Source: Pseudooceanicola sediminis (GTDB lineage: Bacteria > Pseudomonadota > Alphaproteobacteria > Rhodobacterales > Rhodobacteraceae). From it: DNA of 64,000 bases. The notes under the pieces are model-generated. The model saw only the letters and a list, made by a program, of their open reading frames with translations, was not told the origin of the DNA and did not search any database. Below are positions 11,672 through 28,514 of this stretch, piece after piece. Made by a program: the position numbers and the translations under genes. The first letter of the stretch is position 1. Every line of letters starts with the position of its first letter. Where the stretch lies: NCBI RefSeq assembly GCF_003575965.1, contig NZ_QWJJ01000013.1, positions 1 through 64,000 of the forward strand, given 5' to 3'.

Positions 11672-11752
11672 GTTGGGGCACAAGGAGTCATCCCGGGCCC
11701 GCAGCAGCACCCACTGGCGCCAGCGCTGCGGACCCGAAACCGCAGGGCGGTG

Positions 11753-13975: not shown

Positions 13976-14029
13976 CTTGGTCTCCATGTTGGATTTATTG
14001 TTTTTTTGCTTGGTTGGACCGGGTGCGGA

Positions 14030-14737
14030 TCAGGCCGCCCCCAGGTAGGCTTCGGCAAGGTGCGGGTTTGCCGCCAGTTCGGCGGCAGGCCCGGACAGCA
14101 TTTCGCGCCCCAGTTCCAGCACGACACCGCGTGCGGCAACCTCCAGCGCCATATGCGTGTTCTGTTCCACCAGCAGGATCGAGATCCCGTCGCGGTTCAG
14201 CTCCCGGATCAGGTCGAACAGCTTTTCCACGAACAGCGGCGACAGGCCCAGCGATGGCTCGTCCAGCATGATCAGCCGGGGGCGGGACACAAGCGCGCGC
14301 CCCAGGGCCAGCATCTGCTGTTCGCCCCCCGACAGGACGGTCGCCTTCATGTGCCGCCGTTCCGCGAGGTTGGGAAACCGGTCATAGATCGCGGCAAGGT
14401 CGCCATGCACGGCGTCGTCGCGGCGCATGTACCCCCCCATCAGCAGGTTTTCCTCGACCGTCATCGACACGAAGATCTGCCGGCCTTCGGGCACCAGCGC
14501 CATGCCACGGGCCACCCGCGCAGCCGGCGTCAGCGTGGTCATGTCCTCTCCGTCGAACAGGATCTGCCCGCCCTGCGGTTTGCGTGCGCCATGCAACGCC
14601 CGCAAGAGCGAGGTCTTGCCCGCGCCATTTGCGCCCAGGACGGTCACGATCTCGCCCTGGGCCACGCCGAAGGAAACCCCCTGAACCGCCCTTGTGCGGC
14701 CATAGGTGACCTCGAGATCCCTGACTTCAAGCAACAT
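14030..14737 (-). CDS. livF: LivF-type ABC transporter ATP-binding protein
   Basis: This 235-residue ATPase partners the LivG-type ATPase in a hydrophobic-amino-acid-type importer. It has Walker A GANGAGKTS, signature LSGGEQQ, Walker B LIMLDEPSLGL and the H-loop region VEQNTH. The ATG at 14737 (MLLEVRDLEV) starts the conserved fold and overlaps the livG end by 11 bases. A longer frame is only the livG gene in another frame. Length is normal for LivF. The symbol denotes family membership, not a demonstrated leucine substrate. Confidence 0.9.
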   Translation of the reverse strand: MLLEVRDLEVTYGRTRAVQGVSFGVAQGEIVTVLGANGAGKTSLLRALHGARKPQGGQILFDGEDMTTLTPAARVARGMALVPEGRQIFVSMTVEENLLMGGYMRRDDAVHGDLAAIYDRFPNLAERRHMKATVLSGGEQQMLALGRALVSRPRLIMLDEPSLGLSPLFVEKLFDLIRELNRDGISILLVEQNTHMALEVAARGVVLELGREMLSGPAAELAANPHLAEAYLGAA

Positions 14738-15518
14738 CGCTCGCCTCCGATTTGTCTGAATGGCGCGGGCCCAGGTAGGCCTCCAGCACCAAGGGATCGC
14801 GCTGCACCTCGGCGGTCGGACCATCGTAGATCTTGCGACCAAAGTTCAGCACGACCGCGCGCGTGCACAGCGACCGCACCAGTCCCATGTCGTGTTCGAC
14901 CACCAGCAGCGTCACCCCACTGGCCGAGATCCGGTCGAGGAAGGCCATCAGCTCCTCCGTCTCGGCCCCGTTCAGCCCGGCTGCGGGTTCGTCCAGCAGC
15001 AGCAGCCTGGGGCGCGCGGCCAGGGCGCGCACCAGCTCGATCTTCTTGCGGATGCCATAGGGCAGGGTCGACACGTCCTGCCCCGGCATGACCTCGATGC
15101 CCATCTCGGCCAGCAGCGCCTCCGCCTCGGCCCGCGCTTTCGATCGGCCAAGGAACGACAGCGGCGCCAACAGCCCACCGGGGCGATCGGCGCGCGAATG
15201 CTGCCCCAGCATGACGTTTTCCACCACGCCAAGGTGCGGCATCAGGCGGATGTTCTGAAAACTGCGCGCCATGCCGAACCCGATGCGCTGGCGGCTGGGC
15301 ACGGTGTCGATCAGCTGCCCGCCCAGGCGGACATGGCCGGCATCCTGGCGATAGACCCCGGACAGCAGGTTGAAGATCGTCGTCTTGCCCGCGCCATTGG
15401 GACCGATCAGCGCCAGCCGGCCCCCCTGTTCCAGCGTGAAACTGACGTCATCGATCACCTTCAGCCCCCCGAAGGAGATCGACAGGTTCTCGACCGACAA
15501 AAGGGGTACGGTGCTCAT
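14727..15518 (-). CDS. livG: LivG-type ABC transporter ATP-binding protein
   Basis: This 263-residue ATPase has Walker A GPNGAGKTT, a Walker B region LLLLDEPAAGL and the H-loop VEHDMGL. The LivG-typical segment GMARSFQNIRLMPHLGVVENV is present. The usual LSGGQ signature is replaced by the stretch STLPYGIRKKIELVRAL, which is normal for LivG proteins. It overlaps the livM stop by 4 bases (ATGA), so translation is coupled. It works with LivF, LivM, LivH and the binding protein encoded downstream. Confidence 0.92.
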   Translation of the reverse strand: MSTVPLLSVENLSISFGGLKVIDDVSFTLEQGGRLALIGPNGAGKTTIFNLLSGVYRQDAGHVRLGGQLIDTVPSRQRIGFGMARSFQNIRLMPHLGVVENVMLGQHSRADRPGGLLAPLSFLGRSKARAEAEALLAEMGIEVMPGQDVSTLPYGIRKKIELVRALAARPRLLLLDEPAAGLNGAETEELMAFLDRISASGVTLLVVEHDMGLVRSLCTRAVVLNFGRKIYDGPTAEVQRDPLVLEAYLGPRHSDKSEASDVA

Positions 15519-16450
15519 GCCTCGGCCTCCTTCTGGGTCGCGTTGGAGGAACGGCGGCGGAACGGATGCGACAGCCGTTCGACCAGCTGCCGCGTCACCA
15601 GCCCTTCGGAGCGGAACACCATCATCAGCACGGTCACGACACCCAGCAGCACGAAACGCCAGCTTTCGTCAGGCGGCGTCACCGCGCCCTCGACCCCGAA
15701 CACCGACATAACCGCGACCTTCATCTGCGGCAGCAGATTGCGCAGCAGTTCCGGAACCAGCGTAAAGAACGCAGCCCCCACCATCGGCCCCCACGGCGTT
15801 TGCGCCCCGCCCAGCAGCACGTACAACAGCACGTAGATCGATAGGGCGGAATTGAAGGTCTGCACTTCGACATAGGTATAGGCATGGGCGTACAATCCGC
15901 CCGACAGCCCGGCCAGCCCGGCGCCAAGGGCAAACATGGCGACACGCACCATGCGCACATCGACGCCCATCAGGTCCGAAACCACGTCGTCGTCATGCAC
16001 CGCGCGCACGACCAGCCCCAGCCGGGTCGACATGATGTAGAAACAGATCAACGCCGCCACGACGGCCCCGGCAACGGGCACGGGCCAGTCGATATAGTCG
16101 GGCACAGGCAGCCCCATCGCCCCGCCGAGCGCATCCGAGTTGATGATGATCCCCACCACCACCTCGGCAAAGGCAAATGTACCGAGCACCAGATACACAC
16201 CCTTCAGCCGCAGTATCGGAAAGGCGAAGGCAAAGCCGATCAGCCCTGTCACCAGGATCGATGCCGGGATCGTCACGTACAGCGGCATCCCCATTTCGGC
16301 CGACAGCCAGGCGGCGGAATAGGCCCCGATTGCCTGAAACCCGGCCCCGCCAAGGTTCAGCTGGCCGGTGGCGACCGCCAGGAAGATCCCGTAGGCAAAG
16401 ACGATATTGATCGCCAGGATCGTGATGATCCCGATCCAGTAACCGCTCAT
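15515..16450 (-). CDS. livM: LivM-type ABC transporter permease
   Basis: This 311-residue membrane permease has many hydrophobic segments. Family features are AVATGQLNLGGAGFQAIGAY near the N-terminus and GVDVRMVRVAMFALGAGLAGLSG, followed by the C-terminal LLGGAQTPWGPMVGAAFF. ATG 16450 is chosen because it gives a normal N-terminus (MSGYWIGIITILAIN) and overlaps the livH stop by one base. It forms the membrane channel with LivH. A longer frame upstream is the livH gene in another frame. Confidence 0.9.
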   Translation of the reverse strand: MSGYWIGIITILAINIVFAYGIFLAVATGQLNLGGAGFQAIGAYSAAWLSAEMGMPLYVTIPASILVTGLIGFAFAFPILRLKGVYLVLGTFAFAEVVVGIIINSDALGGAMGLPVPDYIDWPVPVAGAVVAALICFYIMSTRLGLVVRAVHDDDVVSDLMGVDVRMVRVAMFALGAGLAGLSGGLYAHAYTYVEVQTFNSALSIYVLLYVLLGGAQTPWGPMVGAAFFTLVPELLRNLLPQMKVAVMSVFGVEGAVTPPDESWRFVLLGVVTVLMMVFRSEGLVTRQLVERLSHPFRRRSSNATQKEAEA

Positions 16451-17367
16451 CACAATTTCCCCTTGCCGATGGCATTGTGGCCGAACAGGCCCTGTGGCCG
16501 CATCAGCAGCGTGACCAACAGCGCGCCCCAGACGGCGACCTGCACCGCATCCGCGCCGAAAAAGTGGATCGTCAGCATCTCGACCAGCCCGACGATGATG
16601 CCGCCCGCGACGGCCCCCCAGAGCGAACCGAGGCCACCGACGACCATCCCCGCGATGGCCTTGGAGCCGATGTCTTCGCCCATCTGCGGGCTGACTTCGC
16701 CGTAGTTCACCGCGAACAATGCCCCCGCAAGGCCGCACAGCAGCCCCGTCAACATGAAGACGACCGGTACGATCCTGTTCGGTTCGACCCCCAGGATCGA
16801 CGCCGCATCGGGGTTTTCCGCGATGGCGCGCAGCCCGCGCCCAATCCGGGTGGATTTCATCATCCAGACCAGCCCCAGGATCAGCAGCATGACGATGGCA
16901 AAGCTGACAAGCTGCGGAATGCGTACGAAAATACCGCCAATCTGCGCCGTCAGATCAGACGACGGGCCGGGAAAGCGCTGTGAATCCGACCCATAGAAAA
17001 TCCGGATGAGGTTTTCGAGGATCAGCAGAAACCCGAGGGACGACACCAGCGGAATGGCATGTTCGGTGGAATCGCCGTGGCGGGTGCGCATGTAGCGAAA
17101 CGTGAAACGTTCGACCAGCAGCGAACACAGGACCGAGGCCAGCCCCCCGACGGCCAGTGCCAGCGGCCAGGCCAAAGGTCCGCTCAGCCCGAATGGCAGC
17201 CCGAAATACGCCAGCCCCCAGCCCACCATCCCCGCCACCATGAACAGCGTCGGGATCGTGAAGTTGAGAAAATTCAGGATGCTTATCGTCAGCGTAAAGG
17301 CGACCGCAACTGTCACATAGACGGACCCCACCATCAGGCCGTTCACGATCTGCTGGACTAGCAACAT
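16450..17367 (-). CDS. livH: LivH-type ABC transporter permease
   Basis: This 305-residue permease is the first gene of the liv-type operon. The N-terminus (MLLVQQIVNGLMVGSVYVTV) and the segment MTIHFFGADAVQVAVWGALL near the C-terminus fit the LivH family. The loop NPDAASILGVEPNRIVPVVF matches the family's ATPase-coupling region (RAIAENPDAA). It is transcribed leftward from the large divergent region at 17368-17737. The likely partner substrate is set by the binding protein at 12800-13975. Confidence 0.9.
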   Translation of the reverse strand: MLLVQQIVNGLMVGSVYVTVAVAFTLTISILNFLNFTIPTLFMVAGMVGWGLAYFGLPFGLSGPLAWPLALAVGGLASVLCSLLVERFTFRYMRTRHGDSTEHAIPLVSSLGFLLILENLIRIFYGSDSQRFPGPSSDLTAQIGGIFVRIPQLVSFAIVMLLILGLVWMMKSTRIGRGLRAIAENPDAASILGVEPNRIVPVVFMLTGLLCGLAGALFAVNYGEVSPQMGEDIGSKAIAGMVVGGLGSLWGAVAGGIIVGLVEMLTIHFFGADAVQVAVWGALLVTLLMRPQGLFGHNAIGKGKL

Positions 17368-17737
17368 TGGGCAGCACCCAGGTTGCTGTAAGTTTCGGTA
17401 TACATATCACGCTCTCAATTTAATTTGGACTGGACAAATTTGAACATCAAAAAGCGGCATCGGTCCAGCCACTCTTCGGCGCAGGACAAAAACATTTCTG
17501 ACTCTGCCGGGTATATTTGCCCTAATATTGGGCAAAATGCGTCGAAATCAGCGTTTTGCGCAGAATTTTTGAGAGTTGCGGCCTGGATCTAAGCGTCGCC
17601 ATCTATCCTGCAACCGCGCCTCCACGGTGGATTGGCGGGCTCGACTGCATTTTCAAAGTTGATTTGTACTGACAATATGTGCACATTTGAGCCTGAAATT
17701 ACGGAACGCACATCACCTCGGAAGGAAGCGAATCGCG
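17368..17737. promoter_or_regulatory. Divergent promoter region with inverted repeats and a TGGACAAATT box
   Basis: This 370-bp AT-rich gap separates the leftward liv operon from the rightward monooxygenase operon. It contains TGGACAAATT at 17431-17440, matching boxes at two other promoters of the cluster. It also contains an inverted repeat TTTGCCC-N7-GGGCAAA at 17516-17536 and a 10-bp perfect palindrome ATGTGCACAT at 17677-17686. A purine-rich GGAAGGA at about 17720-17726 is the ribosome-binding site for the ATG at 17738. I see no gene in it. Confidence 0.5.
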
Positions 17738-18955
17738 ATGACACACAGCAAAGACGCAAGGTCGCGACGGGTAATCGTCGTCGGCGCGGGTCCGGTCGGC
17801 CTGGTCGCGGCATGTTCCCTGGTCGAAGAAGGCATCCCGGTCACCATCATCGAAAAGACGCCCGACCTGCCCGAAGACCTGCGTGCCTCGACCTTCCATC
17901 CGCCGACCCTCGACATGCTGGACCGGTTCGGCGTCACCGAGGGGTTGATCGAACGTGGTCTTGTCTGCCCGCACTGGCAGTTCCGGGACCGCGAGGAAGG
18001 TGTCGTCGCGACCTATGACCTCGGGGTGCTGAAGGACGACACCAACCACCCCTACCGCCTGCAATGCGAACAATGGAAGCTGACGCAGGCGCTGCGCGAC
18101 CTGCTTGAGGCCAGCGACCTGGCGGAACTGCTGTACAATCGGCGCGCCACTGCGCTGTCGCAGGACGACGACGGCGTGACCCTGACCGTCGAACACGACG
18201 ATGGCCGCGTCGAAACGATGGCTGCCGACTACGTGATCGCGGCGGATGGTGCGCATTCGGCGCTGCGCAAGACGCTTGAGATCCCGTTCGAAGGCATGAC
18301 CATACCCGAGATATTCCTGTCGATGTCGACCGAGTTCGACTTTCAGCAGGCGATGCCCGACCTCGCCCCCATTGCCTATCTGACCGACCCGCGGGAATGG
18401 GCGGTGCTGCTGCGCACGCCCAGCCTGTGGCGCGTCCTGCTGCCCACCGACCCCGACATGAGCGAGGCCCAGATCAAGGACCCGGCGCTGATGGAGACCC
18501 GCCTGCAAGCGCTGTGCCCCAAGGATACGCCCTATGAAGTCGTTCACGCCACCGCCTACCGCGTGCACCAGCGCGTCGCGCAAACCTATGTAAAGGGGCG
18601 CGTTTTCCTGGCCGGAGATTCGGCGCACCTGAACAATCCGCTGGGCGGCATGGGCATGAACGGCGGCGTGCATGACGCGGTCAACCTGGTAGACAAGCTG
18701 GCCCGTGTCTGGCGTGGAGAGGCCGCGCTCGACCTGCTCGACCTTTATGACCAGCAGCGCCGCAAGGCCTGTATCGACACGGTGCAATCCCAGTCGATCC
18801 GCAACCGTCGCATGATGGCCGAAACCGACCCCGCCGCCCGCGCCGCCTATCACGACGACATGCGCGCCGTGGTGGCCGACCCCGTGCGGCACCGCCAGTT
18901 CATGCTGCAATCGTCGATGATCCAATCCCTGCGCGACGTCGAAGCGCTCGCCTGA
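17738..18955 (+). CDS. FAD-dependent aromatic-type monooxygenase (PHBH fold)
   Basis: This 405-residue flavoprotein hydroxylase uses NAD(P)H and oxygen to hydroxylate an aromatic or heteroaromatic ring. It has the FAD motif GAGPVGLVAA near residue 15, the DG motif AADGAHSALRK, and the second FAD motif GDSAHLNNPLGGMGMNGG with the following HDAVNL helix. The segment STFHPPTLDMLDRFG is typical of the 3-(3-hydroxyphenyl)propionate/UbiH-like group. ATG 17738 is preferred over TTG 17687 because GGAAGGA lies just upstream. It is the first gene of a plus-strand run and is followed 24 bases later by a maleate-isomerase-like gene. The substrate is unknown; 6-hydroxynicotinate-type or pyrrole-type hydroxylation is possible. 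Confidence 0.88.
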   Translation: MTHSKDARSRRVIVVGAGPVGLVAACSLVEEGIPVTIIEKTPDLPEDLRASTFHPPTLDMLDRFGVTEGLIERGLVCPHWQFRDREEGVVATYDLGVLKDDTNHPYRLQCEQWKLTQALRDLLEASDLAELLYNRRATALSQDDDGVTLTVEHDDGRVETMAADYVIAADGAHSALRKTLEIPFEGMTIPEIFLSMSTEFDFQQAMPDLAPIAYLTDPREWAVLLRTPSLWRVLLPTDPDMSEAQIKDPALMETRLQALCPKDTPYEVVHATAYRVHQRVAQTYVKGRVFLAGDSAHLNNPLGGMGMNGGVHDAVNLVDKLARVWRGEAALDLLDLYDQQRRKACIDTVQSQSIRNRRMMAETDPAARAAYHDDMRAVVADPVRHRQFMLQSSMIQSLRDVEALA

Positions 18956-18979
18956 CCCCTGCCCGTGAGGACCCCCAAA

Positions 18980-19726
18980 ATGACCGACAGCCTTGGCTAC
19001 CGCATGAAATTCGGCGTGATCGCGCCCTCGACCAACACCTCTGTCCAGCCGGAATTCGACGACATGCGCCCGGTTGGCGTGACCAACCACTTCTCGCGTA
19101 TCGTCATCCCCGACGACCCGGTGCATTCGGACGAGGATTTCAACGAACTGGTGATGCGCATCCGGGCCGAGACGATGAACGCCATCGACGCCGTCAAGAC
19201 CTGCTCACCCGATGCCATGATCATGGGCATGTCCGCCGAAACCTTCTGGGATGGCAAGGACCGCGCCGACAGCCTCAAGGCCGAGGTCGAGGCCCGCGCC
19301 GGCATGAACGTCGCCATGGGATCGGACGCCTGCCAGAACGCGCTGAAATGCTTTGGCGACGTCAAGCGCATCGCGGTCGTGACCCCCTACATGCCCATCG
19401 GCGACGAACAGGTGCGCAAGTTCTTCACCGACTGCGGGTACGAGGTCGTCACCGTGAAAGGCCTGAAATGCACCAGCCCGATGCTGATCGCGCATGAAAC
19501 CGAAAAGACCCTGCGCGACGCCATCAACGAGGTGAACGACCCCTCGGTCGAGGCCATCGTGCAGGCCGGCACCAACCTTGCCATGGCCCGCGTCGGCGGG
19601 ATCGCCGAATTCTGGCTGGATAAGCCCGTCATCGCGATCAACACCGCCACCTATTGGCACGCGCTGCGCATGAACGGCATCCAGGACAAGGTGCAGGGCT
19701 ACGGCTCGTTGCTCAGCCACTACTGA
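18980..19726 (+). CDS. Asp/Glu racemase-superfamily protein, maleate isomerase-like but lacking both catalytic cysteines
   Basis: This 248-residue protein has the fold of maleate cis-trans isomerase and arylmalonate decarboxylase. The N-terminal FGVIAPSTNTSVQPEF matches the substrate-binding loop of that group. At the two places where maleate isomerases carry catalytic cysteines, this protein has Met84-Ser85 (segment GMSAE) and Gly197 (segment QAGTN). The paralogue at 24186-24968 keeps both. It may therefore catalyse a different reaction (for example decarboxylation or hydrolysis) or bind a ligand. ATG 18980 is chosen over GTG 18965 because GAGGA sits 8 bases upstream. It lies between the monooxygenase and the imidase-like gene. 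Confidence 0.8.
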   Translation: MTDSLGYRMKFGVIAPSTNTSVQPEFDDMRPVGVTNHFSRIVIPDDPVHSDEDFNELVMRIRAETMNAIDAVKTCSPDAMIMGMSAETFWDGKDRADSLKAEVEARAGMNVAMGSDACQNALKCFGDVKRIAVVTPYMPIGDEQVRKFFTDCGYEVVTVKGLKCTSPMLIAHETEKTLRDAINEVNDPSVEAIVQAGTNLAMARVGGIAEFWLDKPVIAINTATYWHALRMNGIQDKVQGYGSLLSHY

Positions 19727-19781
19727 CGCTTGCGGGCAGCGCCCCTGCCCGCCCCTCATCCCTTCAGATCAAGAGACCGCC

Positions 19782-20693
19782 ATGCACTACGACTTCGTCC
19801 CCCTTCCCGACCGAAACCCCCTGATCTGGCCGAACGGCAAGAAGCTGGCGGTGATCCTGACCACCAACCTTGAATACTGGGATCAGGAACGCGACGATCC
19901 CGCGCCCTACTACCCCGGTGGCCCCGGCATCGTCGGCGGCACGCTGGGCGGCGATGTCTATGACAACCCGAACTGGACATGGCGCGAATATGGCCAGCGC
20001 GTCGGCGTCTGGCGCATGTTCGATGTCTTCGCAGCCGAAGGCGTGCCGACCTCCTGCACCATGAACGCCAAGATGGGGCTGGAACGGCGCGCCGTGATCG
20101 ATGCCGCCGTTGCCCGTGGATACGAGGTGATCCCCCATAACTATGTCCAGTCCGATCTGCTGACCGATTTCGCCAAGGACAAGGAAAAGGAACGCGCCGT
20201 CATCCGCGAAACGCTGAAGGTCTATGCGGATGTCGTCGGCAAACCCGCCAAGGGCTGGCTGTCTTCCTCGCTGCGCTCTACCCTCAACACCGCAGACATC
20301 CTGGCGGAAGAGGGGCTGACCTTCTTCACCGACCTGCTCAACGACGACCAGCCCTACATGATCCAGACCGAAAGTGGCCGACCGCTGGTCTCGATCTCCT
20401 ATACCTCCGAGGTCAACGATTTCACCGTCTTCATGCGTCAGGGCATGGACGTCGACGGCGCCGCGCGGGTGTTCCAGGAACAATTCGACTGGCTGCGGCA
20501 AGAGGCGACGGACAGCGGTTCGGGCCGGTTCATGAACATCGGCCTGCACCCCCATGTCATCGGTCAGCCATTCCGGATCCGCGCGATCCGTGATTTCATC
20601 CGCTATGCCAAGCAATTCGACGACATCTGGTTCGCCACCCGCGAAGAGCTGGCGGACTGGTACGCCGAAAACCACGCGTCGCACATCGGATAA
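19782..20693 (+). CDS. Polysaccharide deacetylase-fold hydrolase, PuuE allantoinase/cyclic imidase-like
   Basis: This 303-residue cytoplasmic protein belongs to the NodB-fold family whose PuuE branch hydrolyses cyclic amides such as allantoin or cyclic imides. There is no signal peptide, which argues against a wall polysaccharide role. Features are TTNLEYWD near residue 27, a conserved GVWRMFDVFAAEGVPTSCTM segment, and GLHPHVIGQPFR near the C-terminus, which resembles the HPRLIGRPGR metal/active-site stretch of PuuE. Its neighbours are maleate-isomerase-like and amidase-like genes. Hydrolysis of a cyclic imide or lactam to a half-amide would fit, but this is inference from context. Confidence 0.75.
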   Translation: MHYDFVPLPDRNPLIWPNGKKLAVILTTNLEYWDQERDDPAPYYPGGPGIVGGTLGGDVYDNPNWTWREYGQRVGVWRMFDVFAAEGVPTSCTMNAKMGLERRAVIDAAVARGYEVIPHNYVQSDLLTDFAKDKEKERAVIRETLKVYADVVGKPAKGWLSSSLRSTLNTADILAEEGLTFFTDLLNDDQPYMIQTESGRPLVSISYTSEVNDFTVFMRQGMDVDGAARVFQEQFDWLRQEATDSGSGRFMNIGLHPHVIGQPFRIRAIRDFIRYAKQFDDIWFATREELADWYAENHASHIG

Positions 20694-20713
20694 GACCGCG
20701 CGAAAGGGACCGC

Positions 20714-21487
20714 ATGACGGACAGGGAAACGGAAATGGACGCCGACGCACTGGCCCAGATGAAACCGGCCGATCGCGCCTATCATGTGATCCGCGCCGCG
20801 ATCCTGTCCGGCGAATTGCGCCCCGGCGCCCATCTGGCGGAAAACCAGCTGGCCGAGATGTGCAATTCCTCGCGCACCCCCGTGCGCGAGGCGCTGCAAC
20901 GCCTGACCGCCGAGGGGCTGGCCCTGTCCGAACGGCGCAGCCGTTTCGTGGCCAATTTCTCCTACGAGGAAGTCTCGGTCGTGTTCGAGCTGCGGGCCCG
21001 GATCGAATCCTACCTGGCCCGGATCGCCGCCCGCAAGATCACGACCGAGGAGATGGCGCACATGCAGGACCTGATCCTGCGCATGGACGCCGAGGAGGCC
21101 CGCGACCCGATCATCTTTCACGATCTGAACACCCAGTTTCACGACGCCATCCTGCGCGCCACGCGCTCGGCGCAGTTGCGGTCGGTCACGCGGCAGGTCT
21201 TTGCCCTGCCCCTGGTCACGATCAAGCGCGCCTATTGCGATCAGCCGATTGATTCATCCCGCTCGAATGCCCAGCACCGCGATATCCTCGCGGCCTTTCG
21301 CAACCGGGACGAGGCCTGGGCGGAATCCGCGATGATGGGGCATATCCTGTCTGCCAAACCCACCCGCCCGCAGGACGACTCGCCCGAGGCGACGGCGCGC
21401 CAAAATGCCGAAGACGCCCTGACACGGGCGATGGCAAACAGCCTCGGCACCCCTGCGCACGGCGGCTTTTTCGGAGATCCCAAATGA
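20714..21487 (+). CDS. GntR-family transcriptional regulator, FCD (FadR) subfamily
   Basis: This 257-residue regulator has an N-terminal winged helix-turn-helix (about residues 15-75, with LAENQLAEMCNSSRTPVREAL as the core) and a C-terminal all-helical FCD ligand domain. The FCD domain shows the usual metal/ligand Asp and His residues (FHDLNTQFHDAI and HRDILAAF). FCD regulators normally sense carboxylic acids. It sits inside the plus-strand catabolic run, 20 bases after the imidase-like gene, and its stop overlaps the next SDR start by 4 bases. It is a candidate controller of the TGGAC-box promoters described elsewhere. Confidence 0.9.
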   Translation: MTDRETEMDADALAQMKPADRAYHVIRAAILSGELRPGAHLAENQLAEMCNSSRTPVREALQRLTAEGLALSERRSRFVANFSYEEVSVVFELRARIESYLARIAARKITTEEMAHMQDLILRMDAEEARDPIIFHDLNTQFHDAILRATRSAQLRSVTRQVFALPLVTIKRAYCDQPIDSSRSNAQHRDILAAFRNRDEAWAESAMMGHILSAKPTRPQDDSPEATARQNAEDALTRAMANSLGTPAHGGFFGDPK

Positions 21488-22317
21488 CATCCACCACCCG
21501 CCCGCTTGGCGGCAAGACCGCCATCGTCACAGGCGCTTCACGCGGCCTTGGGCGCGAAATGGCGCTGGAACTGGCGCAGGCCGGGGCAAATCTGGTTCTG
21601 TTGGGTCGCACCGACGGCGCCGCCTTGCAAGACGCGCGCGCCCAAGTTGCGCAACTGGGTGCCGAAACGCTGGCGCTGGCCTGCGACGTGGCCGACCCGG
21701 TGCAATGCCAGGCCGCCGTGACCGCAGCGATTGACCGCTTTGGCGCGATTGACGTGCTGATCAACAATGCCGGGATCGGGATGCGCGCGATTTCCGAAAC
21801 CTTCAATACCGTCCCGACACGCTTTTGGGACGCCACGCCGGAGGCCTGGGCCGCGATCATCGCCGCCAACGTCAATGGCCCCTTCAACATGGCGCGCTTT
21901 GCCACGCCGCAGATGCTGGCGCAGGGCGCGGGCAAGATCATCAATATCTCGACCTCCGATCAGACCATGGTGCGGCGTGGCTATGCGCCCTATGGCCCGT
22001 CCAAGGCCGCGCTCGAAGCCGCCTCGCGCGTCTGGGCGCAGGATCTCGACGGCACCGGCGTCACGGTCAATGTCTACCTGCCCGGCGGCGCGGCGGACAC
22101 CGATCTGCTCCCCCCGTCGGCGCAGAAAAAGGGGGCCGACGGCAATCTGCTCTCGGCCGCGATCATGCGCCGCGCCATCGTCTGGCTGTGTGGCGCGGGG
22201 TCCGACGGCGTCACCGGCGCGCGTTTCATCGCCCGCCACTGGAACCCCGACCTGCCTGATGCCGAGGCCGCCGCCGCCGCCCGCTGCCGCCATGTCGACA
22301 AGCCGGAAATCATGTAA
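21484..22317 (+). CDS. Short-chain dehydrogenase/reductase (SDR)
   Basis: This 277-residue NAD(P)-dependent enzyme has the cofactor motif TGASRGLGREM, NNAG in the fourth strand region, and YGPSK as the catalytic Tyr-Lys with Ser in INISTSDQ. After the catalytic helix a loop NVYLPGGAADTDLLPP replaces the common PG(x)T segment. It overlaps the regulator stop by ATGA and its own stop overlaps the ATG of the next hydrolase by one base. Translational coupling on both sides suggests it works in the same pathway. The substrate is unknown. Confidence 0.88.
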   Translation: MTSTTRPLGGKTAIVTGASRGLGREMALELAQAGANLVLLGRTDGAALQDARAQVAQLGAETLALACDVADPVQCQAAVTAAIDRFGAIDVLINNAGIGMRAISETFNTVPTRFWDATPEAWAAIIAANVNGPFNMARFATPQMLAQGAGKIINISTSDQTMVRRGYAPYGPSKAALEAASRVWAQDLDGTGVTVNVYLPGGAADTDLLPPSAQKKGADGNLLSAAIMRRAIVWLCGAGSDGVTGARFIARHWNPDLPDAEAAAAARCRHVDKPEIM

Positions 22318-23216
22318 TGGTCGCCCTCGGCCCCCATGCCAGTGTCGAACGGGTGATCGACATCGACCCGTTCCGACTGCCGCTCGACTTCCTGTTCCCC
22401 GACGCGCAGCTCGGCACGCTGGCCACGGCGCGCGGCTGGCTGGCCCCGCATCACGTCGATTTCGACCGGGCCGAGGTGCTTTTGGGCGTGCAGAGCCACC
22501 TGTTGCGCATCGGCGGTCGCGTGATCCTGATCGACAGCTGCGTCGGCGAACACAAGCACCGCCCCAACCGTGCCGACTGGCACATGCGCGCCGACACCGG
22601 CTATCTGGCCCGGCTGGCCGCGCACGGCGTCACGCCCGCCGATGTCGATGTGGTCTTCTGCACCCACCTGCACGCCGATCACGTCGGCTGGAACACCCGG
22701 CTTGAGGATGGCCGCTGGGTGCCGACCTTTCCCAACGCCCGCTACCTGGTGGGCAGGACCGAGCTGGCCCACTGGCAAACCCACGCCGCGGCCAACCACG
22801 GTGCCTTCACCGACAGTGTCGCCCCCCTGCTCGAGGCCGGCTGCGTCGACGTCGTGGACGATGGCGCGGACCTCGGCGGCAAGATGCAGCTGGCGCCCGC
22901 CAGGCTTGACGCAACCGACCTCAGTGGCCATTCGCCCGGACAGCTCGGCCTTGTCGTGCAGGGCGGGGGCACACGCGCGATCTTTTGCGGCGATGCCATC
23001 CACAACCCGGCGCAGCTGGTGCGGCCCGACTGGACATCGCAGTTCTGCCATGACCGCGCCCTTGCGGCCCGCACGCGGCGTCAGCTGCTGCAAGACGCCA
23101 GCGATACCGGCAGCTACATCATCCCCGCGCACCTGCGGCACGCCATGGCGTTCCGCCCGCTGCCCCGGCATGACAACGGGCACGACACATGGCAGCCGCT
23201 ATGGCTTCAGGATTGA
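22317..23216 (+). CDS. Metallo-beta-lactamase-fold hydrolase (lactonase-like)
   Basis: This 299-residue metallohydrolase has the metal motif THLHADHVGWN near residues 116-126, a later metal His in the segment SGHSPGQLG, and Asp in FCGDAIHNP. That set defines a dinuclear-zinc centre of the lactonase/parathion-hydrolase-like branch. There is no signal peptide. A pathway lactone, cyclic ester or lactam could be its substrate; 4-pyridoxolactonase is a family member with a similar SDR neighbour in vitamin B6 degradation, which is a parallel and not an identification. It ends convergently with the UTRA regulator, overlapping its 3' end by 10 bases. Confidence 0.85.
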   Translation: MVALGPHASVERVIDIDPFRLPLDFLFPDAQLGTLATARGWLAPHHVDFDRAEVLLGVQSHLLRIGGRVILIDSCVGEHKHRPNRADWHMRADTGYLARLAAHGVTPADVDVVFCTHLHADHVGWNTRLEDGRWVPTFPNARYLVGRTELAHWQTHAAANHGAFTDSVAPLLEAGCVDVVDDGADLGGKMQLAPARLDATDLSGHSPGQLGLVVQGGGTRAIFCGDAIHNPAQLVRPDWTSQFCHDRALAARTRRQLLQDASDTGSYIIPAHLRHAMAFRPLPRHDNGHDTWQPLWLQD

Positions 23217-23977
23217 CCGCGGTTCCGGCGAATACGCATCTTGTAACTCAGCTGCTCGGCCGGGTGCCAGTTGCACGACGTGATCAGAACCCCTTCGGAC
23301 GTCCGGTAGCGGCGCAGCAATTGCAGCGCGATGGCACCCGGGGCCAGGCCCAGCAGCCTTTGCGCGGCCTCGGGCATCGGGGCGGCGCTGATCTCCTGCT
23401 CGCATTCGTCGATCGGCACCACCGAATGGCTCTCAAGCAGGTTGAAGAACGGGCCGTTATAGTCCTGAAACTGCGGCACCAGATGGGCGAAGGCCGCCGG
23501 AACATAGCTCTGGATATAGGCCAGCGGCCGCCCCCCCGGACGGGTCCAGCGGACACCGTTCACGCGGGTCCATGCCTCGCCCGGCTTGCCGCCGACAATC
23601 TGCGCCAGCGCCTTGTCCAGTGTAATCACCTCACTGCCCAGCACGACATAGTAGGTTTCCACCGCAACCTGGAACAGCTCCTGCAGGCTGTCGAAGGTCT
23701 GGCTGTAGCGCACCTGCGGCTGGGTCGAAATCACCCGCGTGCCAAGGCCCTGACGACGCTCGACAAAACCGTTGTCCGTCAGGTTGCGCAGCGCCTCACG
23801 GACGGTAAAGCGCGAGGTGTCGAATTCCGCCGAAAGCTCCACCTCGGTCGGCATCAGCGACCCGATCGGATAGGTGCCGTCGCGCAGCCGCGTTTCCAGA
23901 ATGCGCTGGATGCGCGCATAGCGCGGCCCTGCCCCCTCACCACCGGAGGTCAGTTTATCAGACGAATTTCCGGACAT
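23207..23977 (-). CDS. GntR-family transcriptional regulator, UTRA (HutC) subfamily
   Basis: This 256-residue regulator has an N-terminal winged helix-turn-helix around residues 17-80 (core LMPTEVELSAEFDTSRFTVR) and a C-terminal UTRA ligand-binding domain of about 150 residues. It is transcribed leftward, away from the operon that begins at 24186, across a 208-bp gap with two TGGAC-type boxes. Regulation of that operon and of itself is the simplest reading. The ligand is unknown, but HutC-type proteins usually respond to a pathway intermediate. Confidence 0.9.
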   Translation of the reverse strand: MSGNSSDKLTSGGEGAGPRYARIQRILETRLRDGTYPIGSLMPTEVELSAEFDTSRFTVREALRNLTDNGFVERRQGLGTRVISTQPQVRYSQTFDSLQELFQVAVETYYVVLGSEVITLDKALAQIVGGKPGEAWTRVNGVRWTRPGGRPLAYIQSYVPAAFAHLVPQFQDYNGPFFNLLESHSVVPIDECEQEISAAPMPEAAQRLLGLAPGAIALQLLRRYRTSEGVLITSCNWHPAEQLSYKMRIRRNRGQS

Positions 23978-24185
23978 CAGCGCCTCGTACCTTGCAATGG
24001 CCTACCTCTACCTGCTGCAACCTACAGGAGTCTCTGCTTATTTTGACCATTTAGTCCAGCCTGTCCCCTTTTCCTGCACAATCTTGAACACGCGCGCCCA
24101 ATAGATATGGACATTTAAATATCGCCATGAAATATTTGAACGGACAAGGGGTGACCACCATCCCGTCGTCACCGGAAACACGATA
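23978..24185. promoter_or_regulatory. Divergent promoter region with two TGGAC-type boxes
   Basis: The gap between the UTRA regulator (minus) and the maleate-isomerase-like gene (plus) contains TGGACTAAAT on the minus strand at 24050-24059 and TGGACATTTA on the plus strand at 24108-24117. A further TTTGAACGGACAA lies at about 24134-24146. The 24040-24060 and 24100-24140 stretches are AT-rich, unlike the surrounding genes. Together with the boxes at 9688 and 17431 these suggest a shared operator. Confidence 0.45.
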
Positions 24186-24968
24186 ATGCCTGCGCCTCTC
24201 GCCTCTTCTCGCCGCATTGCGCGCCGCGCCTCCTCCTACGGCACACGTGGGCGGCTCGGGCTGATCACGCCGCCCACCAATACCGTGAACGAGGCGGAAT
24301 GGGCGCGCATGATCCCGATGGGGGTCACCAGCCACAGCCACCGGATGCGTCTGCACGCCGACACGACCAGCCCGGCGGGCCTGCAATCCCTGCATGATGA
24401 CCTTGATGCCGCGATTGCCATGCTGGCGGCGGCTGACGTCGACGTGGTGGCCTATGCCTGCACCGCGGGGTCGATGATCACCCCTGCCGCTGCCTTGCCC
24501 AATGACCTGACGGCGCGCAACCAAATCCCCGTTGTCACCACCGCCGCCGCGATCATCGATGCGCTCACGGCCCTCGGCGCGACCCGGATCAGCGTGGCCA
24601 CCCCCTATCACGATGCCCTGAATGACCACGAGGCGCACTTTCTGGCCGATCACGGCATCGAGGCGCTGTCGATTTCGGGCCTCGGCCTGGGGGCAAACGG
24701 CCCTGCGGAATATTCGCTGATCGCGCAGACACCTCTGGATCAGGTGATGGCCCACGCGCGCCGCGCCTTTGTCCACGGGTCCGATGCCCTGCTCCTCTCG
24801 TGTACCGACTTCCCGACGCTGCCGATCATTCCCGCGCTTGAGGCGGAACTGGGCGTACCGGTCGTGTCCTCGAACACCGCGACCCTGTTTGCCGCCCTGA
24901 ACGCAGCGGGCCTGACAGGCGAAAAAATAACCGGAGCCGGGCGCCTGCTGTCCGGCGCATTCACCTGA
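24186..24968 (+). CDS. Maleate isomerase-like Asp/Glu racemase-superfamily protein (both catalytic cysteines present)
   Basis: This 260-residue protein resembles maleate cis-trans isomerase (NicE/MaiA family). The substrate loop GLITPPTNTVNEAEW is present. The first cysteine is Cys92 (segment YACTAGS) and the second is Cys206 (segment LSCTDFP), the positions that form a covalent intermediate in the family. Conversion of maleate, or a substituted maleate, to the fumarate form is the expected reaction. It opens an operon with an ICL/PEP-mutase-type lyase, an isochorismatase-type amidase and an SDR, which supports a half-amide to diacid to C-C cleavage order. The exact start is uncertain because no strong ribosome-binding site precedes the ATG. 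Confidence 0.82.
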   Translation: MPAPLASSRRIARRASSYGTRGRLGLITPPTNTVNEAEWARMIPMGVTSHSHRMRLHADTTSPAGLQSLHDDLDAAIAMLAAADVDVVAYACTAGSMITPAAALPNDLTARNQIPVVTTAAAIIDALTALGATRISVATPYHDALNDHEAHFLADHGIEALSISGLGLGANGPAEYSLIAQTPLDQVMAHARRAFVHGSDALLLSCTDFPTLPIIPALEAELGVPVVSSNTATLFAALNAAGLTGEKITGAGRLLSGAFT

Positions 24969-24983
24969 TCAGGAGCAGTCCCC

Positions 24984-25847
24984 ATGGCCAACCCCGCACT
25001 CCGACAAAAGCTCACCTCGGGCGACTTCATCCTCGCTCCCGGTGTCTTCGACCTGATCTCGACCCTGATTGCGGATCGCGCCGGGTTTCCCGCGCTCTAC
25101 GTCACCGGCTACGGCACCGTTGCCTCTCACCTCGGGCTGCCGGACGCGGGCCTTGCCACCTATACCGAAATGCTGGGCCGCATTTCCCAGATGGTGAAAC
25201 GGGCTGACACCCCGATCATCGCCGATGCCGACACCGGCTATGGCGGCCTGCTGAACGTGCGCCACACCGTGCAGGGGTATGAGGACGCGGGCGTCACCGC
25301 CATTCAGATCGAGGATCAGGAGTTTCCCAAGAAATGCGGCCATACCCCCGGCCGCCGTGTCGTCGCGATGCAGGATATGGTGCGCAAGGTCGAGGTCGCG
25401 GTCGACAGTCGCCGCTCGGATGATTTCCTGATCATCGCCCGCACCGATGCCCGCACCACCCTCGGCCTTGACGAGGCGATCCGCCGGGGCAAGGCCTATG
25501 CCGCCGCCGGGGCCGACATCGTCTTTGTCGAAAGCCCGGAATCCCCCGAAGAGATGCGCCGCATTGCCGACGAGATCGACCGCCCCCTGATGGCCAACAT
25601 GGTCGAAGGCGGCCGCACCCCGATCCTGACCGCCGAGGCGCTGGCCGATCTGGGCTATGCCCTCGCCATTCACCCTGCCACCGGCTTCCTCGCTGTCGGT
25701 GCGGCGCTGACGGCGGCCTACGCCGACCTGCTGGCCCATGGCGAAACCACCGAGGCGATCCCGATGCATTCCTTTTCCGATTTCAACACCCTTGTCGGGT
25801 TCGAGGACGTCTGGGCCTTCGAACGCCGTTTTCCCGAAATCGACTGA
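24984..25847 (+). CDS. Isocitrate lyase/PEP mutase-superfamily carbon-carbon lyase
   Basis: This 287-residue TIM-barrel enzyme cleaves or forms carbon-carbon bonds next to a carboxylate. It has the catalytic loop KKCGH at residues 116-120, whose Cys is the lyase general acid, and the metal/substrate segment ADADTGYGG. Those features fit methylisocitrate lyase, 2,3-dimethylmalate lyase or oxaloacetate decarboxylase-like members. AGGAG lies upstream of the ATG. Next to maleate isomerase- and amidase-like genes it could split a hydrated, substituted maleate into two usable fragments such as pyruvate plus a short acid. No hydratase is visible in the window. Confidence 0.87.
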   Translation: MANPALRQKLTSGDFILAPGVFDLISTLIADRAGFPALYVTGYGTVASHLGLPDAGLATYTEMLGRISQMVKRADTPIIADADTGYGGLLNVRHTVQGYEDAGVTAIQIEDQEFPKKCGHTPGRRVVAMQDMVRKVEVAVDSRRSDDFLIIARTDARTTLGLDEAIRRGKAYAAAGADIVFVESPESPEEMRRIADEIDRPLMANMVEGGRTPILTAEALADLGYALAIHPATGFLAVGAALTAAYADLLAHGETTEAIPMHSFSDFNTLVGFEDVWAFERRFPEID

Positions 25848-25850
25848 CCA

Positions 25851-25894
25851 GACACCGCTCCGACACCGCTTCGATACCGACAGGATACCGACGT
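25851..25894. repeat. Four 11-bp tandem repeats (GAYACCGNNNN) filling an intergenic gap
   Basis: Units start at 25851, 25862, 25873 and 25884, exactly 11 bp apart, and read GACACCG, GACACCG, GATACCG, GATACCG plus four variable bases. They occupy nearly the whole 48-base gap between the lyase stop and the amidase start. The ATG at 25896 follows the last unit, and AGGA at 25882-25885 inside the array is the only ribosome-binding candidate. The last unit is identical to 20-30 of the window. Confidence 0.75.
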
Positions 25895-25895
25895 T

Positions 25896-26543
25896 ATGAC
25901 CGACGACCTGACAGACAACTACGCCCGGGCCTATGGCGGCTCCGCAGGCTTCGGCGCGCGCCCCGCGCTGGTGCTGGTCGACTTCGCCCAGGGCTACTTC
26001 GACCCCGACTGCCCGCTCTATGGGGGCGAGGGGTGCCGCACCGCCCTCGCCTCCGCGCTGCGCATCCGCGCCGCCGCCCACGCCGCGCGCCTTCCGGTGA
26101 TCCTGACCGAGGTCAGCTATCCCGACGACACGGGTCTGACAGGCGGGCGTTTCTGGCAAAAAGCCAAGCCTTTATCGGCCTTTATCAAGGGCCGCAGCAC
26201 CGCCGCCTTTGCCGACGGGCTGGTGCCCCAAGACAACGAAGTCATCGTGACCAAGCATTATCCGTCGGCCTTTTTCGGCACGTCCCTTGCCCCGATGCTG
26301 ACCGCCATGGGTATCGACAACGTGATCCTGGCGGGTCTGACCACCTCGGGTTGCATCCGCGCCAGCTGCGTCGACGCGATGAGCCATGGGTTCATCACAA
26401 CGGTGGTTTCAGATGCCTGCGGCGACCGTCACCCTGGCCCACACGATGCTAACCTGTTCGATATGAACGCAAAATATGCCGATGTGGTCTCCGAGGAAAC
26501 CATCCTCGCCCATATCGCCTCGCTCCGCTCCGGCGGCAATTGA
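25896..26543 (+). CDS. Isochorismatase-family amidohydrolase (maleamate/N-carbamoylsarcosine amidase-like)
   Basis: This 215-residue cysteine hydrolase has the full catalytic triad Asp29 (LVLVDFAQ), Lys120 (VTKHYPSAFFGT) and Cys153 (TTSGCIRAS). The C-terminal ANLFDMNAKYADVV stretch is typical of the N-carbamoylsarcosine amidase/maleamate amidase (NicF) group. It should cleave a linear amide, and beside a maleate isomerase-like gene a half-amide such as maleamate is the natural candidate. The start ATG lies at the end of an 11-bp tandem repeat array that supplies its weak ribosome-binding site. Isochorismate itself is an unlikely substrate here. Confidence 0.87.
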   Translation: MTDDLTDNYARAYGGSAGFGARPALVLVDFAQGYFDPDCPLYGGEGCRTALASALRIRAAAHAARLPVILTEVSYPDDTGLTGGRFWQKAKPLSAFIKGRSTAAFADGLVPQDNEVIVTKHYPSAFFGTSLAPMLTAMGIDNVILAGLTTSGCIRASCVDAMSHGFITTVVSDACGDRHPGPHDANLFDMNAKYADVVSEETILAHIASLRSGGN

Positions 26544-26563
26544 CCCCAAGGAAAGGCCAGGAC

Positions 26564-27322
26564 ATGGCACTGCAAGAAAACGGCGCGCTGCACGCGCCAA
26601 AAACCATCGCCGTCCTCGGCGGTGCCGGTGGCATCGGCCGCACCCTGGTCGCCAGCCTTCAGAACCTTGGCCACACGGTCACTGTCCTGGACCTTCCGAC
26701 CTCTCTGAAAGCGCATAAAATCAACGGGATAGAGATCGACGCCGCGGATGAAGCAGGCGTCGCCCGGGCGATGGACGACCTCTCCGTGCGCCATGCAGAC
26801 GGCCTTGATGGCTTCGTGAATCTTGCGGGCTGGAACTCGGTCATCCAGCCGCTGAGCGAGACCCCGGCGTCCTATTTCGACGATGTCGTGCAGGGCAACC
26901 TGCGCTCCACCTTCCTCGCAACCAAGGCCGTGGCACCCCTGCTGCGTGACGGCGGCGCGATTGTGCTGTGTTCTTCGGGGCTTGGCAGCTTCATTCGGCC
27001 CGGGTTCGGGCCCTACGCGGCCTCCAAGGCCGGGGTCATCGCGCTGACCAAGACCTTCGCCCTCGAACTTGCGCCACGTCTGCGGGTCAATGCCGTCGGC
27101 CCTGCCGTCGTCGACACCGCCTTTCTGCGCGGCGGAACGGGGCGTTCGGACGAAAGCAGCGAAAACGTGTTGGATATCGAACGTCACAAGGCGATGACGC
27201 CACTGGAGCGCGTCGCGCAGCCCGAAGATGTCGCTGGCCCGATCCGCTTTTTGCTGGGACCGGATTCCAGCTTCATGACAGGTCAGGTACTGTGGGTGAA
27301 CGGCGGCGCCTACATGCCCTGA
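26564..27322 (+). CDS. Short-chain dehydrogenase/reductase (SDR)
   Basis: This 252-residue NAD(P)-dependent oxidoreductase has GGAGGIGRTL as its cofactor motif, NLAG in the central strand, Ser in LCSSGLG and YAASK as the catalytic Tyr-Lys. The C-terminal FMTGQVLWVNGGAYMP is standard for the family. ATG 26564 is chosen over TTG 26540 because AAGGAAAGG lies at a proper distance upstream. It is the fourth gene of the 24186 operon. The substrate is unknown. It is the third SDR within 18 kb, which points to several alcohol/ketone steps. Confidence 0.9.
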   Translation: MALQENGALHAPKTIAVLGGAGGIGRTLVASLQNLGHTVTVLDLPTSLKAHKINGIEIDAADEAGVARAMDDLSVRHADGLDGFVNLAGWNSVIQPLSETPASYFDDVVQGNLRSTFLATKAVAPLLRDGGAIVLCSSGLGSFIRPGFGPYAASKAGVIALTKTFALELAPRLRVNAVGPAVVDTAFLRGGTGRSDESSENVLDIERHKAMTPLERVAQPEDVAGPIRFLLGPDSSFMTGQVLWVNGGAYMP

Positions 27323-27389
27323 CACGGCGGCACAGTGCCTGCCGACTGACCTGACCTTGACGCGAGTTTCCGTGACTATTCAAACAGAT

Positions 27390-28514
27390 ATGACGTCGAA
27401 CACCTTCCGCGACCCCGGTTTCCGCCGCGCCACGGCACGGCGGATCTCGGTCTGGTTGGCGCTTGCGGTGTTGTCTGCGGCGCTGGCCTGGGCGCTGGAA
27501 CTTGTTCACCTGCCGGCGGCCTTGTTGCTGGGGCCGATGATCGCCGCCATCGTGATGGCCGCCACCGGTGCGACCGGCGGCTCGGGGCCGTTTCACGTCA
27601 TGGCCATCCCGCGCCCCCTGTTCGGCATTGCCCAGTCCGCCATCGGCGTCATGATCGCCACCACGATCCCGCCCGAGACCCTGCGCGATATCCAGCAGAA
27701 CTGGCAGGTGTTCCTGTTCGGTGTCGTCTCGGTCATCATCGTCTCGACAACGCTGGGATACCTGCTGGCGATACGCCAGGTGCTGCCGGGGGCCACGGCG
27801 ATCTGGGGATCGACCCCCGGCGCGGCCCAGGCGATGGTCTTTCTGGCCGAGGCGCATGGATCCGATATGCGGCTTGTCGCCGTCATGCAGTATCTTCGGG
27901 TTGGCCTGGTCGCCGCAGGTGCGTCACTTGTCGCCCGTTTCTGGGTTGGCGCGCCAGAGGTCGCCCCGGCGGCGATCGTCTGGTTTCCGCCGCTCGAAAC
28001 CGGCGTTCTGCATACCATGGGCCTCATGCTTCTGGGGGTCGGCGTGACCCGCGTCCTGCGCATTCCGGCGGGGGAATTCCTGGTGCCGCTGCTGGTCGGC
28101 GCCGCGGCACAGGGGCTGGGCCTGGTTCATCCTGCCGTGCCCCCTTGGCTGCTGGTGATCGCCTTTGCCCTTTGCGGCTGGATGATCGGCCTGCGGTTTA
28201 CCCGCGAAATCCTCGTGCACGCATGGAAAGCGCTGCCCAGGCTGGTCATGTCGATCATCGTGCTGATGACGCTTTGCGGGGCGCTGGCCGCCCTCTTGTC
28301 GTGGTGGCTGGGCATCGACCCGCTGACGGCCTATCTGGCGACCAGTCCCGGCGGCGCGGATTCCGTCGCGGTCATCGCTGCCTCCAGCAATGTCGACATG
28401 GCATTCGTGATGTCGATGCAGACCTTGCGGTTCATCCTGGTGCTGATCTCGGGGCCTATCGTCTCTCGCTGGTTTGCCAGACGCCTCGCGGCACGCAACG
28501 CCAACCCAGCCTGA
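27390..28514 (+). CDS. AbrB-family integral membrane protein (putative transporter)
   Basis: This membrane protein of about 374 residues matches the family named AbrB/AmoR-like (PF05145 type). Despite that name it is not the Bacillus DNA-binding AbrB. It has many hydrophobic segments and an internal duplication, shown by GSTPGAAQAMVFLAEAHGSD in the first half and ATSPGGADSVAVIAASSNVD in the second. The function is unsettled; transport is the usual proposal. It follows the SDR gene by 67 bases and is probably part of the same operon, where it could move a substrate or product. Start choice is uncertain (TTG 27357, GTG 27372 or ATG 27390). Confidence 0.8.
   Translation: MTSNTFRDPGFRRATARRISVWLALAVLSAALAWALELVHLPAALLLGPMIAAIVMAATGATGGSGPFHVMAIPRPLFGIAQSAIGVMIATTIPPETLRDIQQNWQVFLFGVVSVIIVSTTLGYLLAIRQVLPGATAIWGSTPGAAQAMVFLAEAHGSDMRLVAVMQYLRVGLVAAGASLVARFWVGAPEVAPAAIVWFPPLETGVLHTMGLMLLGVGVTRVLRIPAGEFLVPLLVGAAAQGLGLVHPAVPPWLLVIAFALCGWMIGLRFTREILVHAWKALPRLVMSIIVLMTLCGALAALLSWWLGIDPLTAYLATSPGGADSVAVIAASSNVDMAFVMSMQTLRFILVLISGPIVSRWFARRLAARNANPA

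Follow-up and report, generated by a model that had tools for sequence, protein, structure and literature searches.

The first 64,000 nucleotides of contig C6 (positions 1-64000) of the 4.44 Mb genome of Pseudooceanicola sediminis, hereafter the window, contain at 9749-28514 a group of genes that on balance appears to be a patchily distributed catabolic island, importing a nitrogen-containing ring compound and degrading it for carbon and nitrogen through the order of steps proposed below. The observations behind this reading are the gene content, its conservation and co-occurrence in other genomes, the active-site residues, and the predicted fold of a protein encoded at 18965-19726, here named Cys-less because both catalytic cysteines of the maleate isomerase/arylmalonate decarboxylase/EutA superfamily are absent from it. 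From these we infer every reaction, and an alkyl-substituted N-heterocycle as the substrate.

The co-occurrence of the genes was analysed in a family sample of 198 genomes, almost one per genus and including the window's own, with thresholds of E<=1e-30 for Cys-less, E<=1e-70 for the flavin adenine dinucleotide (FAD) monooxygenase and the isocitrate lyase (ICL)-type lyase, and E<=1e-60 for the PuuE-like hydrolase and the amidase. The Cys-less gene was found in 14 genomes, the FAD gene in 14 and both in 13, the FAD counts being lower bounds with nine candidates scored per genome; in all 13 the two genes lie no more than 3 kb apart, with one genome having only the Cys-less gene (G137) and one only the FAD gene (G048). 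All five genomes with the PuuE-like gene have both, and the Cys-less gene is shared by 8 of the 14 genomes with the lyase and 11 of the 14 with the amidase. Fisher tests against the Cys-less gene, uncorrected for kinship, gave p values of 2.5e-18 for the FAD gene, 3.7e-13 for the amidase, 1.5e-7 for the lyase and 8.3e-7 for the PuuE-like gene. The genes thus co-occur beyond chance and in many genomes, as the initial annotation of this DNA had demanded of a pathway. In a phylum sample of 398 genomes the Cys-less gene is rare, being present in 4 including the window's own (E<=1e-40); its three other places there contain the amidase (3/3), the FAD gene (2/3) and the ICL-type lyase (2/3); locus L111, which has no FAD gene, is on a contig that begins 3 kb upstream.

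A pattern-based search of a species-genome collection with the PuuE-like protein revealed 71 loci, of which 70 (L003-L072, 48-98% identity) were counted and one (L073, 32% identity) was excluded. Neighbouring homologues were accepted at >=40% identity (36% for the LivK-like protein, the metallo-beta-lactamase (MBL)-fold hydrolase and the GntR-UTRA regulator) within about 10 kb, and their numbers are lower bounds, since 18 of the 70 stretches are shorter than 15 kb. The Cys-less gene was found at 45 loci, the ICL-type lyase at 31, the amidase at 24, and genes of a tripartite ATP-independent periplasmic (TRAP) transporter and its TAXI-type binding protein at 11 and 9, respectively. The PuuE-like protein of the window is 98% identical to the copy of Pseudooceanicola spongiae. 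Near-whole islands are collinear on a plasmid of Allorhizobium pseudoryzae, without a LivH match and with an added aldehyde dehydrogenase, and in genome G188, with the TAXI gene inverted. Among records of Rhodobacterales, Rhizobiales, Acetobacteraceae, SAR116-like, sphingomonad and gammaproteobacterial origin the gene order is shuffled, which makes passive linkage unlikely. In Novosphingobium capsulatum, genes for a short-chain dehydrogenase/reductase (SDR), the amidase, the PuuE-like hydrolase, the ICL-type lyase, the FAD monooxygenase and Cys-less lie near P450 and TonB-receptor genes. Of 236 plasmid records with a PuuE-like match, 4 were analysed.

The Cys-less gene, the tightest partner of the FAD gene, starts 9 bases after it. 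Its product is predicted to adopt the fold of the superfamily named above and passes the Pfam Amdase model (59 bits vs 25.9), whereas its scores are below the curated cut-offs for EutA (64 bits vs 318) and arylmalonate decarboxylase (57 vs 225). The two conserved catalytic cysteine positions hold Met and Gly in all 52 aligned copies, and neither is a cysteine in any of the 29 rows of a second alignment, which includes IgiC-type rows. On the phylogenetic tree the IgiC-type copies form a clade beside the catabolic members; the copy from Leisingera caerulea, identified as IgiC by gene order and located in an indigoidine-type operon, is 43% identical to the protein of the window. Indigoidine is built from a 2,6-dioxopyridine-type unit. 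IgiC of the Leisingera indigoidine operons (PMC5014874) belongs to the same Cys-less family, but adjoins a nonribosomal peptide synthetase (NRPS) in a biosynthetic operon and not an FAD monooxygenase of the cluster's family. It is tentatively suggested that the Cys-less family, IgiC included, could represent a new enzyme activity on hydroxylated dioxo-N-heterocycles. Such an enzyme might, for example, be a tautomerase or ring hydrolase that works without cysteine and stands in for ring-opening dioxygenases in an aerobic N-heterocycle pathway not yet described, with a related step in indigoidine synthesis.

Members of this family are also found in other surroundings. An igiBCDF-like gene order is present on a Rhizobium jaguaris plasmid (L106, 7783-16337) beside genes of YcaO/thiazole-oxazole-modified microcin (TOMM) type, amounting to a pigment-type NRPS in a rhizobium. 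In Roseomonas haemaphysalidis (L108, 12004-13865) the Cys-less gene immediately precedes a RutA gene that passes its curated cut-off and follows genes of an ATP-binding cassette (ABC) importer, while in Salipiger abyssi (L104, 10402-12287) it adjoins a gene with a glutamate cyclase domain, and two TRAP systems are close by. At L095 (7740-14847) and L096 (4946-9185) a divergent Cys-less protein and an FAD monooxygenase are encoded next to the large subunit of a molybdenum (Mo) hydroxylase; among the open reading frames (ORFs) tested at these loci no Fe-S subunit was recognised, and those of L095 include DctM/DctP-type transporter genes.

Regarding the other enzymes, the nearest solved structures of the FAD monooxygenase are PnpA (223 bits) and HspB (172 bits). 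The PuuE-like protein falls well short of the 424.6 bits set for the PuuE equivalog, and its family profile matches the PuuE structures 1z7a (E 1e-47) and 3cl6 (E 3e-46) over most of its length; no signal peptide was seen by eye. It keeps His119 but, in one alignment, has Gln123 where HpPgdA (3qbu) has a second His, so that a zinc site like that of the deacetylases looks unlikely. The triad of the amidase is kept in 38 of 38 sequences; its nearest solved structures are N-carbamoylsarcosine amidohydrolase (26st) and 3ot4/3uao, of which we take 3uao to be the maleamate amidohydrolase NicF. An HspB/PnpA-kind FAD hydroxylase, an isochorismatase-family amidase and a maleate isomerase-like protein are also features of the nicotinate/2,5-dihydroxypyridine (nic, VPP) pathway; the cluster differs from it in the absence of a recognised ring-opening dioxygenase or deformylase, in its added C-C lyase and in having a maleate isomerase homologue at just 8 of the 70 loci. 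The absence of nicX and nicD stated in the initial annotation holds for the cluster genes, rather than for the whole genome, insofar as these genes fall in other families, the presence of NicX and NicD models in the libraries being unchecked.

The lyase contains the KKCGH motif at residues 116-120, and its catalytic Cys118 is present in 40 of 40 sequences. At the position of PrpB Arg241, which presumably binds the third carboxylate of methylisocitrate, 37 of these 40, among which some stretches were entered twice, have Leu, two have Arg (L041 and the paralogue L109) and one has a gap. With Leu at this position and a score below the PrpB cut-off, the protein does not qualify as a methylisocitrate lyase of the PrpB kind. 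Its second-best solved match (194 bits) is petal death protein, which we take to be a 2-alkylmalate lyase; both have PKKCGH and EGG-TP motifs and lack an Arg corresponding to PrpB Arg241, and the window lyase differs in having Pro231 vs Ser. Because of the Leu and these motifs, the window lyase looks like a 2-alkylmalate enzyme, in keeping with the alkyl-substituted acid of the initial annotation.

The surroundings of the Cys-less gene itself were counted at 67 loci. A repeat of L036 (L093) was dropped, as were L001, L002, L078 and L099 (window copies, the genome's own paralogue and a repeated short stretch) and L079-L087 (about 3.7 kb each); L079, L081 and L083-L087 repeat counted loci, and the non-repeats L080 and L082 hold the Cys-less gene only. 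Near-identical loci of one environment (e.g. L016, L022, L039) were counted separately, and L100-L108 are nine places selected among 33 matching plasmid records. The FAD gene lies within 5 kb at 55 of the 67 loci and the amidase at 36. An ICL-type lyase alone is present at 28 loci, a coenzyme A (CoA)-transferase and/or hydroxymethylglutaryl (HMG)-CoA lyase without ICL at 8, and both types at 7, and they are possibly exchangeable C-C lyases. The Cys-less gene is accompanied by CoA-transferase, HMG-CoA lyase and amidase genes on Tistrella pTM1, and by the same types plus a LeuC-type gene at L098; no enzyme of the set was found near it at plasmid places L102 and L103.

Two steps of the order proposed in the initial annotation proved dispensable, although hydroxylation, C-N hydrolysis, deamidation and C-C cleavage fit the families. 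The imidase-like step is not general: a PuuE-like match (E<=1e-60) is missing in 8 of the 13 family genomes that carry both the FAD and the Cys-less gene, and no PuuE-like gene was found in the Thioclava cluster. Five loci without it (L088-L092, in genomes G106, G126, G113, G101 and G183) nevertheless keep the FAD, Cys-less, SDR1 and TAXI-TRAP genes together in 5/5, with the amidase in 4/5, SDR2 in 4/5 and ICL in 3/5. Given those eight genomes, the PuuE-like hydrolase is an optional step, or another enzyme that went unrecognised takes its place. The isomerisation is not general either, as a maleate isomerase homologue occurs at 8 of the 70 loci, with both cysteines in five of them, while the copies of L023, L024 and L031 (43% identity) have the first cysteine only.

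In the proposed pathway the substrate would be imported by LivKFGMH and/or TAXI-TRAP, its side chain might be trimmed or a lactone opened by the SDR and MBL-fold enzymes, and the ring would be hydroxylated by the FAD monooxygenase. The hydroxylated ring, as its lactam or imide tautomer, would be passed to Cys-less for tautomerisation or hydrolysis, as opposed to cysteine-based racemisation, and the PuuE-like hydrolase, where present, would open a C-N bond. The isochorismatase-type amidase would release ammonia from the resulting half-amide. Hydration of the unsaturated diacid, an alkylmaleate, would fall to a further enzyme, probably of LeuCD type and encoded outside the cluster, before the ICL-type lyase splits the 2-alkylmalate into pyruvate and a short acid. 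The addition of a malate-type lyase implies a four-carbon backbone after deamidation, and hence a chain through an alkyl-substituted imide or lactam and an alkylmaleate.

Several points weigh against this scheme. None of the metabolic enzymes at 17738-26543 reaches a curated NCBIfam cut-off in the listed scores, and neither a substrate-specific gene nor a hydratase that could act ahead of the lyase was found in the cluster. The argument from the lyase depends on the role assigned above to PrpB Arg241, and most loci were retrieved through the PuuE-like gene, whose count is inflated by this. The FAD gene is not within 5 kb at 12 of the 67 Cys-less loci (two of them on short contigs), at 24 of the 67 both ICL and CoA-transferase/HMG-CoA lyase are missing, and the loci with both lyase types show that these are not strict alternatives.

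As to the hydratase, LeuC-type genes lie near some loci, and at a second locus of the same genome (G000:C10, ~39-49 kb) hydratase- and lyase-type genes adjoin each other: an ICL-type lyase (42%) is encoded there together with an FAD paralogue (44-45%) and proteins of LeuC and LeuD type. That these LeuCD genes serve the cluster is only a guess, because both pass the isopropylmalate dehydratase cut-offs. At this second locus (L109, 4965-14951), perhaps a sister pathway, the ICL-type lyase retains the Arg lost in the window copy, and three genes have TctABC-like sizes and order; the one of these that was tested matched no family.

An alternative is a six-membered route, for which Aspergillus nidulans and nicotine degradation by Arthrobacter provide precedents: 2,3,6-trihydroxypyridine or glutaconimide would be opened to 2-oxo- or 2-hydroxyglutaramate, deamidation would follow, and the lyases would act on side products or substituted versions. 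The kinship of Cys-less with IgiC of a pigment operon is consistent with this, as are L095 and L096, where the large subunit of a Mo hydroxylase is paired with the FAD monooxygenase and Cys-less. The Hxn nicotinate pathway of A. nidulans, which according to PMC9304392 comprises hydroxylation, reduction, a dehydrogenase, a PuuE-related cyclic imidase and an amidase, is the nearest worked template for the cluster, and the order of its enzymes speaks for the main proposal as well: FAD hydroxylation, an SDR-type step, hydrolytic C-N ring opening by a cyclic-imide hydrolase related to PuuE/HpPgdA, and an amidase match HxnV, HxnW, HxnM and HxnN. However, no old-yellow-enzyme gene was recognised in the window cluster, HxnN is an amidase of the fatty acid amide hydrolase (FAAH)-like kind, a family other than that of the cluster amidase, and Cys-less, the malate-type lyase and the ABC and TRAP importers have no counterpart among the Hxn steps described there. 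There would be no need for a malate-type lyase if the product were of glutarate type, yet ICL or CoA-transferase/HMG-CoA lyase is present at 43 of the 67 loci, and Gln123 of the PuuE-like protein stands in place of the His of HpPgdA, the nearest structure to HxnM. The six-membered route is considered unlikely.

Somewhat less probable still is ureido catabolism, with an oxidised pyrimidine- or purine-like ring, a PuuE-like hydantoinase, an isochorismatase-type carbamoyl hydrolase and Cys-less as a relative of hydantoin racemase. The RutB model scores just 45 bits vs 378, it is hard to see what alkylmalate- or HMG-type lyases would do in ureide breakdown, and the known racemase chemistry of the arylmalonate decarboxylase/maleate isomerase fold requires the cysteines that are missing here. 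It is very unlikely that 17738-23216 and 24186-28514 are unrelated adjacent operons for separate substrates, as the two GntR regulators, the divergent gene at 23207-23977 and the many loci with FAD, Cys-less and PuuE-like genes but no ICL or amidase nearby might suggest, given that both halves recur together, rearranged, in distant genomes (L013, L019, L044, L077, L088-L090, L113). Vitamin B6 breakdown, considered for its combination of SDR, lactonase and FAD enzymes, was dropped, with the 4-pyridoxolactonase model at 30 bits vs 325. Homarine catabolism, considered as relatives are marine, is neither supported nor excluded, none of the papers listed being on that pathway by title. No paper describing the cluster was found when the library was searched for the gene combination and imide pathways, judged by titles and the starts of abstracts.

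The genes of the catabolic island are listed in Table 1. Those given in the initial annotation, with their coordinates and residues (Cys92/Cys206, KKCGH, Asp29/Lys120/Cys153), were confirmed as ORFs, but Cys-less, the most diagnostic of the genes, and the importers had been overlooked. The run at 17738-23216 is co-directional with intergenic gaps of -4 to 55 bases, the GntR-UTRA gene is opposed to the runs flanking it, and 24186-28514 forms a second tight run; the importer genes at 9749-17367 are on the strand opposite to the catabolic run. An ORF at 23189-24046 (+), antisense to the GntR-UTRA gene and without a family match, was discounted.

Table 1. Features of the putative catabolic island in the window.
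Feature	Position	Strand	Evidence and occurrence
Fused TRAP transporter permease	9749..11710	-	TIGR02123 526 bits, cut-off 321
TAXI-type TRAP solute-binding protein	11753..12712	-	Pfam NMT1_3
LivK-like solute-binding protein	12800..13987	-	Pfam Peripla_BP_6; 36/70 loci
LivF-like ATPase	14030..14842	-	Pfam ABC_tran; 36/70 loci; ORF taken from its first start, the true one possibly internal
LivG-like ATPase	14727..15518	-	Pfam ABC_tran + BCA_ABC_TP_C; 36/70 loci
LivM-like permease	15515..16738	-	Pfam BPD_transp_2; 38/70 loci; true start probably internal
LivH-like permease	16450..17367	-	Pfam BPD_transp_2; 40/70 loci
FAD monooxygenase, PnpA/HspB-like	17738..18955	+	Pfam FAD_binding_3 227 bits; 49/70 loci
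Cys-less arylmalonate-decarboxylase/maleate-isomerase-fold protein (predicted), IgiC relative	18965..19726	+	
PuuE-like hydrolase, putatively acting on a ring or imide	19782..20693	+	TIGR03212 131 bits, below cut-off
GntR-FCD regulator	20714..21487	+	Pfam GntR + FCD; 6/70 loci
SDR dehydrogenase 1 (SDR1)	21484..22317	+	Pfam adh_short; 14/70 loci, plus 5/5 of L088-L092
MBL-fold hydrolase, lactonase-like	22317..23216	+	AidB lactonase model 75 bits, cut-off 360 not reached; 29/70 loci
GntR-UTRA regulator	23207..23977	-	Pfam GntR + UTRA; 18/70 loci
Two-Cys maleate-isomerase-like protein (Cys92, Cys206)	24186..24968	+	Nearest solved structure 2xec, maleate isomerase
ICL/phosphoenolpyruvate (PEP)-mutase-family lyase, predicted 2-alkylmalate type	24984..25847	+	PrpB model 271 bits, cut-off 354.4
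Isochorismatase-family amidase	25896..26543	+	Asp29/Lys120/Cys153
SDR dehydrogenase 2 (SDR2)	~26567..27322	+	PRK07231 145 bits, cut-off 215 not reached; 25/70 loci
AbrB-family membrane protein, possible transporter	27357..28514	+	Pfam AbrB 303 bits; 5/70 loci and Thioclava

The LivKFGMH and TAXI-TRAP importers travel with the cluster. A TRAP permease is found at the equivalent place in P. spongiae, P. nanhaiensis, Maritimibacter alkaliphilus, Albimonas donghaensis and Allorhizobium, and a TAXI-type gene adjoins the Cys-less gene also in L088-L092; comparison of the LivK-like protein with solved structures did not point to a ligand. The Mo hydroxylase at 228-4077, included in the initial annotation, is real and has three subunits, but linkage shows it to be peripheral, and it was rejected as the first step of the cluster. 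It lies ~17 kb from the cluster also in P. spongiae, a distance probably kept in M. alkaliphilus, if contig C1 of G200 is the contig of L005 (this copy is interrupted by one internal TGA), whereas in G188 its homologues are on another contig, unlinked to the cluster, and the L004 genome has no match at E<=1e-100. Together with genes for a zinc-type alcohol dehydrogenase, a sugar-type ABC importer and an SDR, it occupies 228-9589 (-). What looks like an ordinary set for cobamide uptake and salvage lies on the other side of the island at 28703-33978 (+), with genes for a solute-binding protein and a BtuB-like TonB receptor, and with an ORF with a heme/corrinoid-type ABC ATPase and a CbiZ-type amidohydrolase.

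If the proposed pathway is correct, proteins of marine and soil Proteobacteria annotated as arylmalonate decarboxylase, polysaccharide deacetylase, isochorismatase and isocitrate lyase-like would belong to one unrecognised pathway of nitrogen-ring degradation, which would offer a hydrolytic alternative to dioxygenase ring cleavage. It would also provide a testable function for the Cys-less branch of a textbook superfamily of cysteine enzymes, and a handle on IgiC.

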